A stretch of 20,935 nt of DNA from Sporisorium sorghi (lineage: Eukaryota; Basidiomycota; Ustilaginomycetes; Ustilaginales; Ustilaginaceae), in contig JALCCG010000340.1 of NCBI GenBank assembly GCA_023212695.1, positions 1 through 20,935 on the forward strand. The letters are read 5' to 3'. The position numbers and the translations under genes were made by a program. Positions 2,845 to 13,167 of this stretch are shown here, piece after piece (position 1 is the first letter of the stretch; each line of letters opens with the position of its first letter). The notes under the pieces are model-generated. The model made no database searches, was not told the origin of the DNA, and saw only the letters and a list, made by a program, of their open reading frames with translations.

Positions 2845-4749
2845 CTACATGAATGGTGGCATGAAGGGCTCAGCAGGACGTGAGAAAGGACCAGGCATAT
2901 CATAGCGCACTGAGCTGGAGCTTGGAAAAGATGGCAGCGGCGGCGAGAGCAGCTGAAGCCCCATGAGATAGTCGTGACCAGGGAATGGTGGTGGTGGCAG
3001 GAGCGACATCAAAGTCTCTGCGTGAACTCTGCTTTCTGCTGCTTGCAGCTCCTGTTCCAGCACTGGCACCTGTGAAGGTGGGTTGCTAACTGGTGATGTG
3101 GTCTTTGTCTTCTTCCTTGCCTGCTTGCAGCTTTGCTTTGCCACTTCCCTTTGAGCTTGCTGCTCACGCTCTGCCAGGAGCCGTGGCAGATCACTTTGGT
3201 GGAGCACTTGTGCTTTTGAGAGCTGATTCCGATCACCTGCGCCTGTCCTCTGCTTGCTGGTTTGTGCTGCAGTCAATTCTTGAATCTGAGCTTGGTCGAT
3301 GACATGTTGATTGAAGAGTTGGTCAACACACTTCCCAAGCTTGTGAGCCCATGTGTGCTGCTGACGTTGAGTGATGCAGATCGAGGCCTGCAACTCTTCT
3401 TGCTGGACCCACAATTCCCCTTGTTGCGCAAGAGATTGGAACAGCTGTGCAACAAGCTGCTTTGCTTCCACTGGCATTGAAGGTGTTGGTGTCTCTTCAG
3501 GAACTGGACAAGGAGTTGGCGGAGTGGTCTCCCGATGAAATGTTGGCATGCAGCACAAGACAGTTTCACGGCAGAGTGTCGAGTCGATGCCCACATCTTT
3601 GAATGCCTTTGCAGTTGCTCTTCCTGTGATGACTTGACGTGCCTTGATGTACATGCTGAGGAAGTCCTTCTTGCTGATGGACAAGTTGGCCCCCGCATAC
3701 TTGTCAACCTCTGTTGAGAAGGCCCTCTGCAGCGGACCAAAGATCGAGACATCCAGCAGCTGGAGAAGGTGAGTGGCATGTGGCGGTAGGCAGAGGCACA
3801 CAATGCGGGAGTTCCAGGCTTGCTGAATGAAGTTGGCTGTGATGTGGGATCCATGACTGTCAAGGATGAGGAGGCGGAACTTGCCCTGCGCCTTTTGCTT
3901 TGTGTGTTTGTCGAAGCAGTCCCACAACCAGTCCAATGCCAGATCATCATCTGTCCAGCCGTTGGGGCTTGTTGCAAACACCCAATCCTTGGCTGCAGTG
4001 TAGTCATGGTACCATCCTTGTTGATGAGTCTTGCCCTTGAAGATGACCATCGGTGGAGGTGGTGGGCCTCATGTGCCAATGCACTCTACCACCGTGATGG
4101 TCTCTCGGTTGCCAGGGTGGGATCGGAAGCGCTTGTTCTTGCTGTTCTCTCTCAGAACAATGATGTTGCTGGACTGACTTTGACTGAGGAGGAAACCAGT
4201 CTCGTCCATGTTGTAGATGTTGTCGGGCACAATGTTGTATTCCTTCACCGTCTCCTCCAACAAGTCAAAGTATGCTTCGACCACCTTGGGATCACTGGCA
4301 AGCACCCTCTGCACATCCATAACACGGGAATAATAGCTTCTGAGCTCTGGGTGACGTTGTTTGAAGGCTGCTACCCAGTTGACGCCCAGGGTGGCATCAT
4401 TGTTGCTGATGTGTTGGCGGAGGATCTGTTCGGCCAGGTTCTTGAGCTCCCCAGGTGTGATTGGGAAGCCAAAGTCTGCACGCTTGCGGATGTGCTGCAC
4501 CAAGACTTCCTCAGCCTCTGGCGGGAGCGCCTGCAGACCTTTGAAAGCCTCTGAACAGCTCTTTCTTCCTTGTTTGTGGTGGTGAAGTGTCTGGTACAGG
4601 AGGTGGTAATGCTGGGCTGCAGCCTTGATGGTTTTGAAGGTGCCTTGGCTCAGGTCTGACAGAGCAGCCTGGATCTGCTGCTCTTGATTGTCCCGGTCAG
4701 CCTTCAGTTGGGTCCTTGCAACCTTCTTCCTTGGTGAAATGTTGACCAT
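2845..4749 (-). pseudogene. pogo/Fot1-like transposase with one in-frame TGA
   Basis: Translation from the first ATG (4749) gives about 634 codons ending at 2845, broken by one TGA at 4069-4071 with no frame change. The N-terminal region (about residues 20-160) resembles the HTH_psq / CENP-B-type DNA-binding region, with a GFPITPGELKNLA block and a NWVAAFKQRHPEL block. The DDE domain has its first Asp in YNMDETGF (about residue 182). After the stop come MVIFKGK, the second Asp in LLILDSHGSHIT, and the third in LPPHATHLLQLLDV. The second and third Asp are 35 residues apart, the D,D35D spacing of Fot1/pogo transposases. A Gln-rich, probably coiled C-terminal tail follows. All catalytic residues survive and the broken position is between two conserved blocks. 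Unless the TGA is read through or edited, only the DNA-binding half plus one catalytic Asp would be made. The residue before 4749 is not ATG-initiated, so 4749 is the preferred start. Confidence 0.9.
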
Positions 4750-4875
4750 TGCTGAGCTGGAGGTGATCAGAGTGATGGTGATGGTGTGTGGCAAGCTAAA
4801 ATATTTTGACTGCTCATGTGCCTATTTTCTTTGGGCCACAGAGTGGCCTTGCCTGGTACTAAATTGATACAGGCT

Positions 4876-10241: not shown

Positions 10242-11717
10242 CTACGTCGAGGCAGAGGCAGCAGCACCGGTAGTGGATGCAGTGGAGGCGCCGCCGACCT
10301 TCCTGTCCTTCTTGCCCTTCTTCTTGTTCTTGCCCGCTGCTTCGGCCACGAGTCGTTCAAGCTCTCGTCGCTCGTCGTCGCCCTCGTCCGGCTGAACCGA
10401 CTTGTAGATCATGCCCAGAAAGAGAATCGCCTGCGCACGGTTGAAGAGCACCTTATCGTCGACGCCCTTCTCGTTGAGCACCTTGTCGCACACCTGTCGC
10501 AAGATGCCCGAGATCTCGAAGCGCGTTCCGCGCCACGTAGCCAGCAGCATCTTGCCGCTCATGTCCTGCTCGAGCGCGCGCAGCTCATCCTCTGGGATCT
10601 CGCCCTTTTCCTGACGGCGTGCCAGCTCGTCCATGGATGCTTTCACATTCAAAGCCGAGCCGAGCATCCCCCACGTCTCTTTGACAACGGCACCGCGCTC
10701 CTTCATGCGGCTCATGAAGCCGCCGAATCCAAGCAAACTGTGCTTCTTGGTCTTGATCCAGGTGGTCGCCTTCATGACGTAGATGTTGCCGATGGCGTGG
10801 AGCAGCTCGACGCCAAACGACTCGAGCTTGAGATCCTCGGCCTCCTCCTTCATCTTGCGCTCAAAGATCTGCGTCTGCGAGTCGTCCTTGTCGCCGGGCT
10901 TGCGCGCATCGACAAAGGGACGAATACGCTCCTTGAGCTTTTCTGAGAGTTCTTCGACTCGCTTGCGCTCGTTTTCCTCCTTTTCCTTTTCGAGCTCCTC
11001 GAGCTTGGCCTTTTGCTCTGGCGTCAGCTTTTGCTTTTGCTTTGCGTCCTCCTTCTTTTTCGCTTCAGCGATTTCTTCGGATGTGGCACCGGCCTCGGCG
11101 GCTTTGCGCGCGGCATCGTCTCCCGCGGTCGTGGCTTCGGCGGGCAAGTCGGTCTTGACGCTGGCGGTGGCGGCGGCGGCGGCGGCGGCGGCGTCGTCGA
11201 CAGAAGCAGGAGCGTCGGTGGGGTTGGCCTTCTTGTGCTCAGCCTTCATCTGGGCCTCGAGCTCTTCCTTTTCCTCCTCTGTCATCATGATCTCGGATGC
11301 TTTGCCAAAGTCTTTGATCAAGCTGATCTCGCCGATAAGATCGACGAAGCGCTCGCCGCCAAAGAGGCTGCCAAACATGTCGGTGGCCTCCTTGAGCCCG
11401 ACCTCGTCCGTGGGCTTCTTCTTGCCGTACTTGTCGTAGTCGGCTCGGAGGTGGTTGTCGCTGAGCACGCGGTAGGCCTCGCCGATCATCTTGAACGTTT
11501 CCTCGTCACCGCCCTTGTCCGGGTGGTTCTTGATGGCGGCTTTGCGGTAGGCCTTTTTGAGGTCGAGGTCCGAGGCATCGCCGCGAACGCCGAGGAGGTC
11601 GTAGTATTCCATGTCGGCGATCTTGGCACCATCGCGCGAGATGTCGCGAGCAGTGGTGGGCTCTGTAGGGGCAGCCGATGCCGGGGTTGGCGCTGATGTG
11701 GATGCCGCGTCCGCCAT
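10242..11717 (-). CDS. DnaJ-domain co-chaperone of the Caj1/Djp1 (DNAJ-X) type
   Basis: A 491-residue protein from the ATG at 11717. The frame is open to 11756, but its first codons include no ATG. After a Ser/Ala/Thr-rich leader, the J domain (about residues 37-99) starts YYDLLGV and has the HPD motif at about 65-67, which is needed to stimulate Hsp70 ATPase. The next part ([24 protein letters not shown]) is typical of Caj1, Djp1 and plant DNAJ-X proteins. A low-complexity segment has an alanine tract encoded by GCC repeats (about 11162-11194), then a long charged helix ([11 protein letters not shown] onward), likely coiled coil. The X domain follows, with [14 protein letters not shown] and WIKTKK. 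The C terminus is Lys-rich. No Cys-rich zinc domain or signal peptide is seen, so it is a class III J protein in cytosol or nucleus. In yeast, Djp1 aids peroxisomal and mitochondrial protein import; the client here is unknown. Confidence 0.92.
11162..11194. repeat. GGC trinucleotide repeat inside the DnaJ gene
   Basis: Tandem GGC units on the plus strand give GCC codons, an alanine run, in the linker between the J domain and the charged helix of the DnaJ protein. The reading frame is kept. Confidence 0.85.
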
Positions 11718-12239
11718 GATGGATCCGTTGTCCTGACGAGGGAGAGATGAATGCAAGGAAAGACGACGAAAGAAGACCCTCTACGGTGTGTGGCTGGGCG
11801 GTAGTGATGTCGTGTATGGAGATTACGAGGAATGGAGGTCTGGTCAGATGGTGGTGGTCATCGACGAACGTGCAACCTCGGGCCTTGGCAAACCTTGAGA
11901 ACGGAGGTCGGCTAGTTTGTCAATCCGATCCAACGACTGTCCGCTCTCGGGCTGTGCTGAGCTGTGCTGTGCGCCTGTGCGGTACGATGAAATCACGCTC
12001 ACCAAAAAAGAACAAAATTTGGGCTCAGCGACCGGAAGTCGGCACGCGTGTCACTTTCGCTTACCAACGACCCTTCTAACTCGAAATTCACGCCGGCTCC
12101 CATGCAACCGAGAGGCTGGCTGCGCAGCGTGAACAAGAGGCGCAGCGTGCAACAGGCTGTGGAAGAGCGCAGCCTGCAAGCTCAGTTTTTCGAAGAGTAT
12201 ATATTCAACGAGCACTCCCGCATCCCCCCTTCTCCGCAA
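11718..12239. other. Region between the DnaJ start and the U2 snRNA gene
   Basis: About 520 bases. The left side should hold the DnaJ promoter and 5' leader (minus strand), the right side the U2 promoter. The only clear element is a TATA-like sequence at 12198-12205. Plus-strand open frames here run on through the U2 RNA and are not taken as coding. Confidence 0.55.
12198..12205 (+). promoter_or_regulatory. TATA-like box of the U2 snRNA gene
   Basis: TATATATT lies about 35-42 bases upstream of the predicted U2 5' end (about 12240). Pol II-transcribed snRNA genes of yeasts commonly use a TATA box near this distance. No plant- or animal-type PSE can be assigned by eye. Confidence 0.6.
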
Positions 12240-12258
12240 ATCACTCTTCTGGCCTATT

Positions 12259-12369
12259 GTAAGTGCACCCGCAAGCCGCGCTGCTTCTCTCTCTCGCTCG
12301 CTCGCTGGCCAGTCTTGTTAACCATACTTTCGCGTCTTGTTTCTTCTGCGATTTCTCTCGACCATACAG
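12259..12369 (+). other. Spliceosomal-type intron within U2 snRNA
   Basis: 111 nt from GTAAGT (12259-12264) to TACAG (ending 12369). A branch-site candidate TTAAC at 12318-12322 lies about 48 nt before the acceptor, followed by a pyrimidine-rich stretch. The intron sits exactly between the loop of stem-loop I (TATT) and its 3' strand (GGCT), directly before the nucleotides that pair with U6. Removing it restores the hairpin TCT-GGCC / GGCT-(T)-AGA. Splicing would be done by spliceosomes that already contain mature U2. Confidence 0.85.
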
Positions 12370-12435
12370 GGCTTAGATCATGTGTAGTATCTGTTCTAAA
12401 TAGATTGACATCTATTTCTCCTCGCTCCGGCGAGG

Positions 12436-12444
12436 ATTTTTTTG
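12436..12444 (+). other. Sm-protein binding site of U2
   Basis: ATTTTTTTG is a U-rich single-stranded element between the GC-rich stem-loop IIb and stem-loop III, the expected place for the Sm ring that directs cap hypermethylation and snRNP assembly. Confidence 0.85.
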
Positions 12445-12551
12445 TCATACACTTTTTCCTAGCGGGAGATCGCCGTTTTGGTGCTTGCACCTCGGGATCT
12501 CGAGGATGTCCTTGGCCCTACACTTCCGCCTTGCGACGTCCGCCGTCCTCT

Positions 12552-13167
12552 CTTTTTTTGTACGGGCTTGATTATATAATTGTGTGTCATCTGGATACGA
12601 TGCAGCGAGCGAGAGGCGTAGTGGGAAATTTGAATGAGAAATGACAGTTTGCCAACAAAAAATGCACGCGTGTGCGAAAAAAAAAGGACCACCAAAAAGG
12701 AGGACGCAAAATTCAGCCGGCTAAATTGATGTCGGTTTCGTCCCCACCGCTGAACCCACCGTGACCTGAGACGGTGCATGTCGCAGAGAGAATGGATCGA
12801 GATGGTGACCTGTATCAGTTGCAACAGCATGCTCCAGAAGCTCGCGGCGATATTGATGACCGGCACGATGAAGGACCACGCAGTTGCAGACGAAGCGAGC
12901 GGTATCGGTGTTCATCGGGGATCAACACACCAACACCGATTCCTGACGCGCTGTTTGTGAACGTCGCGTCGCAAAAGTCACACTCGGCTTCGCGCAGCAG
13001 CAGCAAACAGACGCACACTCTCCGAAAGTCAAATTTCACCCAAATCACAGAATCCAAAGCAAGCGTCGTTCCGCAGTTTCGAAAGTTGATTTCTGTCCCG
13101 CGCGCACCTCTTTCCGCTTCCTTCTCTCCCGCCACCACCATCCTCCCACTACTTTGGTCCCTGCAAG
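12552..13167. other. Region between U2 and the PIF1 helicase gene
   Basis: About 615 bases containing the U2 3' flank (T-rich run right after 12550), several A-runs (12656-12690) and the helicase 5' leader. A minus-strand reading frame near 12726-12866 encodes a short hydrophobic segment (SFIVPVINIAASFW), but it extends as an open frame into U2 and has no family match. I do not call it a gene. Confidence 0.5.

Follow-up and report, generated by a model that had tools for sequence, protein, structure and literature searches.

Where is the 5' end of the U2 small nuclear RNA (snRNA) in this smut genome? In the window, the whole 20,935-nt stretch of DNA that was analysed, the Rfam U2 model (RF00004) matches the plus strand at 12351-12548 with 111.6 bits (gathering score 46), the sole Rfam match at gathering threshold. 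The usual place of the U2 5' end does not contain one, and the missing part is found 111 nt upstream. From the sequence, we consider it very probable that the host, a smut from the Sporisorium/Ustilago group, has at 12240-12548 its only detected U2 gene, and that a 111-nt intron must be removed from the transcript of this gene. A DnaJ-like protein encoded in the same window (10242-11780, minus strand) shows 95% identity, over 96%, with a protein of Sporisorium reilianum, with other smuts and yeast-like relatives as the next named matches. The minus strand also carries the remains of a pogo/Tc5-type transposase at 2845-4821, in two consecutive open stretches with the Tc5 DNA-binding part (4069-4821) and the DDE_1 part (2845-4068). 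The features of the U2 locus are as follows.

12072-12083 (+): upstream element CCTTCTAACTCG, starting 168 nt before the U2 start; putative snRNA promoter element
12198-12204 (+): TATA box TATATAT, 42 nt before exon 1, a spacing equal to that of the U1-like gene
12240-12258 (+): exon 1, ATCACTCTTCTGGCCTATT (also written AUCACUCUUCUGGCCUAUU), with the 5' end and the 5' half of stem-loop I
12244-12251 (+): strand CUCUUCUG, complementary to CAGAAGAG of both U6 genes (U2/U6 helix II), from duplex energy
12259-12369 (+): putative intron, 111 nt, GTAAGT...TACAG, from sequence and splice signals
12318-12322 (+): TTAAC as candidate for the branch site, with its A at 12321 and a distance of 49 nt to the acceptor
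12370-12548 (+): exon 2, starting GGCUUAGAUC (Rfam RF00004, 111.6 bits), with the 3' half of stem-loop I, stem-loops II, the Sm site and stem-loops III and IV
12384-12389 (+): branch-site-pairing GTAGTA (GUAGUA), motif position read from the sequence
12436-12444 (+): Sm site, motif position read from the sequence
12553-12579 (+): 3' flank TTTTTTTGTACGGGCTTGATTATATAA, likely 3'-end formation signal

Stem-loop I and copy number of U2

Infernal aligns 12351-12548 to RF00004 model positions 1-192. The first 19 or so bases of this alignment are intron sequence, and to align them takes one deletion, an insertion of 2 nt and, in the stem, one non-standard pair. Joining exon 1 to exon 2 gives a 5' part (54 nt) in which stem-loop I forms at -11.5 kcal/mol in fold prediction, whereas the unjoined counterpart is predicted to lack stem-loop I (-5.0 kcal/mol). 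We also aligned U2 5' ends in five rows: the joined and unjoined forms and the U2 sequences of loci L036, L039 and L037, the last with its 5' end cut. Compared with L036 and L039, the joined form is gap-free around the junction, while the unjoined form needs a 2-nt insertion there. These comparison sequences come from a search with the U2 core pattern, which had no match in viral contigs and four in the genome contigs searched (L036-L039). An entire, uninterrupted U2 stands in L036, and in L037, L038 and L039 the match is cut off by the end of the locus. We read all four stretches as eukaryotic contaminants, none of them known as smut.

How often would a U2-like 5' end stand before a splice donor by chance? 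With the initial 18 nt of the U2 in L036 as reference, exon 1 has a score of 8. The sequence searched (197,528 nt) comprised both strands of the window and of eight regions around the U1/U4 and U6 loci. Only one of its 37 GTRAGT sites, the U2 junction itself, is preceded by an equally U2-like 5' end, and just 3 of 11,016 GT sites reach this score, the U2 junction among them. Dinucleotide shuffling of the upstream 500 nt, 2000 times over, brought a score of at least 8 before any GT in 11 cases and before GTRAGT in none.

In the 23,174,697-base assembly (469 contigs), the Rfam search detects one U2 and no intact intronless U2 (46 of 241 first-look candidates scored). When the joined 200 nt served as query in a DNA search for a second U2, only exon 2 at the window locus matched. 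A spliceosomal-type intron in stem-loop I of the sole detected U2 is thus the best supported reading, with splicing predicted from the restored stem-loop I, the shared 42-nt TATA spacing, the U6 complementarity described below and the failure to find an intronless copy. These results bear out most of what an earlier note on this DNA had claimed, namely that the locus is a U2 snRNA gene (111.6 bits with RF00004, with GUAGUA and the Sm site present), that an intron bounded by GTAAGT...TACAG interrupts stem-loop I, which returns on joining, and that the missing half lies 111 nt upstream (exon 1 at 12240-12258, exon 2 from 12370). The search that it proposed for a second, intronless U2 was run and returned none, by either Rfam or the joined-sequence DNA query. 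Its joined length of approximately 191 nt stands if the RNA ends at 12541 and does not with the Rfam end at 12548, which gives 198 nt.

U6 pairing and the probably split U4 and U1-like genes

U2 and U4 both pair with U6, and their joined and unjoined forms were compared by pairing with the U6 genes. The Rfam search (47 of 1086 candidates scored) yields two U6 loci, and a 21-nt U6 core pattern, allowing up to one mismatch, finds the same two only, both exact. The internal stem-loops have strongly different sequences, both between the two genes and in comparison with the Rfam consensus. A candidate RNase MRP RNA with 45.3 bits (gathering score 50) lies about 1.4 kb from U6b on the same contig (L056 7813-7955, plus strand). 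The loci outside the window are listed here.

U6a, contig C49: Rfam 43.2 bits, below the gathering score of 44
U6b, contig C140: Rfam 29.2 bits, well below the gathering score of 44
L002 1610-1501 (-) and L003 1607-1501 (-): the two U6 gene loci
C2:167664-167801 (-): U4, Rfam RF00015, 62.4 bits (gathering score 46)
C2:168054-167664 (-; L007 1891-1501): whole putative split U4 gene, with a 10-nt exon 1 up to 168045, a 253-nt intron and exon 2 from 167791
C2, exon 1 167194-167189, exon 2 from 166935 (-; L042 1356 to ~924): U1-like gene, named from architecture and 5' sequence

In the joined form, U2 can make an 8-bp helix II with both U6 genes. The predicted duplex with U6b is far more stable for the joined end (-19.3 kcal/mol) than for the unjoined end (-6.8 kcal/mol). 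For U6a, the two values (-14.3 and -14.0 kcal/mol) do not discriminate; because U6a pairs nearly equally with the unspliced end, support from helix II comes mainly from U6b. On the other side of the intron, GCU at 12371-12373 is the triplet that pairs with the AGC triad of U6. The putative intron lies between this triplet and the helix II strand at 12244-12251, in agreement with the earlier suggestion that it touches the nucleotides that pair with U6.

The genome-wide Rfam search gives one credible U4. A further candidate at L008 (26.1 bits) was rejected as a second U4, since the surrounding sequence looks bacterial by eye. Rfam aligns the contiguous U4 from the first position of the model at 62.4 bits. 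Upstream, the sequence reads ATCCATCTTC/GTAAGTACC (slashes mark proposed splice junctions) and begins a 253-nt putative intron, GTAAGT...CACACAG, whose 3' end is CCACACAG/TGAGGC. The junction, AUCCAUCUUC/UGAGG, lies within the U6-pairing strand of stem II. The joined 5' end AUCCAUCUUCUGAGGC, as long as the human U4 stem II strand, is complementary to both U6 genes, in different registers, with duplex energies of -21.1 (U6a) and -20.0 (U6b) kcal/mol, compared to -11.7 and -11.5 kcal/mol for the contiguous reading. Among the 37 GTRAGT sites, only the U4 junction does as well with both U6 genes, and one more does so with one of them. Likewise, the U4 junction is the only one of 11,024 GT sites to be at least as good on both U6 genes, with three sites having a better summed energy. 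No intron was seen in the two U6 loci, and we propose none, since both read through uninterrupted and pair with U4 in its joined form.

Just downstream of U4 and in tandem with it on C2 is a third gene that appears to be split. We found it via the shared upstream element CCTTCTAASTCG, a pattern derived from U2 and the two U6 genes, which in an exact genome search occurs at six places: at U2, U6a and U6b, upstream of the U1-like gene, and at one place each on C1 and C352, two contigs that look bacterial by eye. The backward pattern occurs at 11 places, so that the forward number by itself is not unusual and the weight of the element lies in having led to the U1-like gene. Its exon 1 and donor, ATACTT/GTAAGTTC, stand 154 nt after the start of the TTCTAACTCG core and 42 nt after TATATAT. 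A 253-nt stretch ending in CCATAG follows, and then ACCTTGG. Joining the exons restores AUACUUACCU, the 5'-splice-site-pairing sequence of U1, with the junction inside it (AUACUU/ACCU). The predicted fold of the joined 180 nt has a 4-bp closing helix, three stem-loops, a UUCG-capped stem-loop IV and a single-stranded Sm-like region (z -3.24; 0 of 200 shuffles as stable). The first loop of U1 carries a GAUCA motif, which is missing from the first loop here. Moreover, the Rfam U1 model (RF00003) has no match anywhere in the genome even at E 1, including this locus as unjoined. For these two reasons, we call the gene U1-like, after its architecture and 5' sequence. Another candidate for U1, L040, was rejected because no U1 stem-loop follows it.

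We judge it likely, on this sequence comparison, that the U1-like and U4 genes are split by 5'-proximal introns as U2 is. At least three snRNA genes (U2, U4 and U1-like) appear to have a 5'-proximal intron in a segment that must pair with another RNA.

Shared gene design and alternative readings

The three genes resemble each other in several ways. Their putative first exons are short (6 nt in the U1-like gene, 19 nt in U2 and 10 nt in U4), and U1-like exon 1 has the same distance of 42 nt from TATATAT as that of U2; in U4, AATTTAA is found 43 nt before exon 1. The 3' flank of the U1-like gene, TTTTTGTAGAGGATTGATTATGTAA, resembles that of U2, the common part being TTTTTGTA...TTGATTATRTAA, and nothing similar was seen after U4. 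All three introns have consensus GTAAGT donors, that of U2 with CAG at its other end; of the ten GTAAGT sites present over 197,528 nt, in regions that were chosen around snRNA genes, three are these junctions. Long zones free of any other AG precede the acceptors (95 nt in the U1-like gene, 59 nt in U2 and 121 nt in U4), each zone contains YTNAY, and the last 50 nt of each intron are 68% pyrimidine. The YTNAY nearest to the acceptor is 85 nt (U1-like), 49 nt (U2, TTAAC, with none within 36 nt) or 63 nt (U4) away, distances that exceed the 6-36 nt between branch site and acceptor given for fungal introns in PMC5832005. A long zone without AG, with CTAAC at 112 nt, is likewise present in one protein-gene intron of this genome that was read by eye; in addition, this intron has TTGAC approximately 10 nt from its acceptor. 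We take the gene in question to be that of a TEA-like domain protein.

Could U2 nevertheless be unsplit, transcribed from approximately 12351 with a diverged 5' end that lacks an ordinary stem-loop I? The full-length Infernal alignment of 12351-12548 to model positions 1-192 is what such a gene would give, and its unspliced end pairs with U6a at -14.0 kcal/mol. However, it would forgo stem-loop I (-5.0 versus -11.5 kcal/mol joined), pair poorly with U6b (-6.8 versus -19.3 kcal/mol) and have its TATA box 153 nt upstream, as against 42 nt in the U1-like gene, and the U2-like 5' end that stands exactly before GTAAGT would be a coincidence; we regard this as very unlikely. Even less credit is due to the idea that the locus holds a U2 pseudogene, decayed or silent, and that the working U2 is missing from the assembly. 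With 469 contigs, some of them bacterial-looking, and no U5 found, a gene could indeed be missing, but the U2 core scores well in Rfam, the promoter element, TATA box and 3' flank are like those of the U1-like gene, and chance decay would not give the same intron design in the U1-like and U4 genes.

A different alternative leaves the U2 intron in place, and is compatible with that part of our explanation, and holds that the other two were misread, U4 being contiguous and the U1-like gene some other RNA. Rfam speaks for it on both counts, as it aligns U4 from the first model position with 62.4 bits and does not recognise the U1-like locus. Contiguous U4, however, loses approximately 9 kcal/mol of pairing with each U6 gene and leaves the upstream GTAAGT and TATA-like box unexplained, while another RNA would need to share the U2-type promoter and 3' flank, yield AUACUUACCU on joining and adopt a U1-like fold. 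This, too, we find improbable, and we retain the reading in which U2, U4 and the U1-like gene are all split.

As to the remaining Pol II spliceosomal RNA, no credible U5 gene was found in the genome by Rfam at E 1, by a loop pattern with up to two mismatches (18 places, with more in the backward control), by a split-loop pattern (9 places, 9 in the control) or by the loop plus an Sm-like run (3 places, 1 in the control). U5 may be split inside its loop, diverged or missing from the assembly, which may be incomplete. The assembly also seems to be contaminated, as contigs C457, C211, C417, C1:74575 and C352 (L008, L047, L049, L041 and L046) look bacterial by eye.

Known snRNA introns and a possible self-dependent spliceosome

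snRNA introns are already known as a class. Fungal U6 introns lie near RNA-RNA contact sites, and a proposal for their origin is reverse splicing into the spliceosome's own RNAs. Fission yeast is among the fungi in which they have been described (Tani & Ohshima 1989; Canzler et al. 2016, both as cited in PMC5832005). The putative smut introns resemble them in being spliceosomal introns within spliceosome RNA; unlike in those cases, no intron is seen in the smut U6, and it is U1-like, U2 and U4 that appear to carry them. For U2 there is the basidiomycete-yeast precedent that the earlier note mentions: the Rhodotorula hasegawae U2 intron (Takahashi et al. 1993, Mol Cell Biol 13:5613) is cited in PMC2586383. 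The two cases are alike in that an mRNA-type intron interrupts a fungal U2 gene. The putative smut intron is 111 nt long, sits upstream in the loop of stem-loop I and is accompanied by apparently split U4 and U1-like genes, with no U6 intron seen. R. hasegawae differs: its U2 intron is reportedly about 60 bp long and located just downstream of the branch-site recognition region, and its U6 is said to have introns as well.

According to PMC5832005, no small structured RNAs other than U3 and U6 were known to have frequent interruptions. For fungal U3 snoRNA it places 133 of 138 introns in the 5' half, and 88 of 136 canonical donors fit GTRWGT. The U3 introns are like the putative smut snRNA introns in being GT-AG introns in a capped small RNA. 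U3 acts outside the spliceosome, so that its introns bring no self-dependence. No title among the matches listed, whose coverage leaves out most journals, reports introns in U1 or U4. The position of the U2 intron, and the set of U1, U2 and U4 introns at RNA-RNA contact sites, look new.

From gene anatomy, splice signals, restored structures and complementarities, all read from the sequence, we infer splicing, a transcription start and a feedback in the following way. U2 transcription would start at 12240, and excision of 12259-12369 would produce a U2 that has both the helix II strand and stem-loop I. The proposed intron sites are the 5'-splice-site-pairing sequence of U1, the stem II strand of U4 and, in U2, the segment between the helix II strand and the helix I/branch-site region. 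Unspliced U1 could not recognise 5' splice sites, unspliced U4 could not form full stem II with U6, and unspliced U2 would have neither stem-loop I nor the helix II strand. The precursors would probably be inert until existing spliceosomes process them; being inactive unless spliced, they would make the supply of U1, U2 and U4 self-dependent, coming from pre-existing spliceosomes only. Such a positive feedback would necessarily be inherited with the cytoplasm. We lean, with some reserve, towards the wider view that every Pol II snRNA gene (U1, U2, U4 and perhaps U5) is split in a segment that pairs with pre-mRNA or U6, so that the spliceosome would be self-made through an RNA loop that is heritable and reinforces itself.

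Should splicing be confirmed, this would be a natural cell unable to rebuild its splicing machinery without an existing copy, and its spliceosomes would have to recognise first exons only 6 and 10 nt long. snRNA introns also bear on the origin of spliceosomal introns, and a single genome with three putative introns in three different snRNAs, none of them farther than 19 nt from the 5' end, offers a test of it. As with the U3 introns, their common 5' position would favour a bias that goes with capped Pol II transcripts. U1 and U4 leave before catalysis, and introns there would be unexpected under insertion at the catalytic core.
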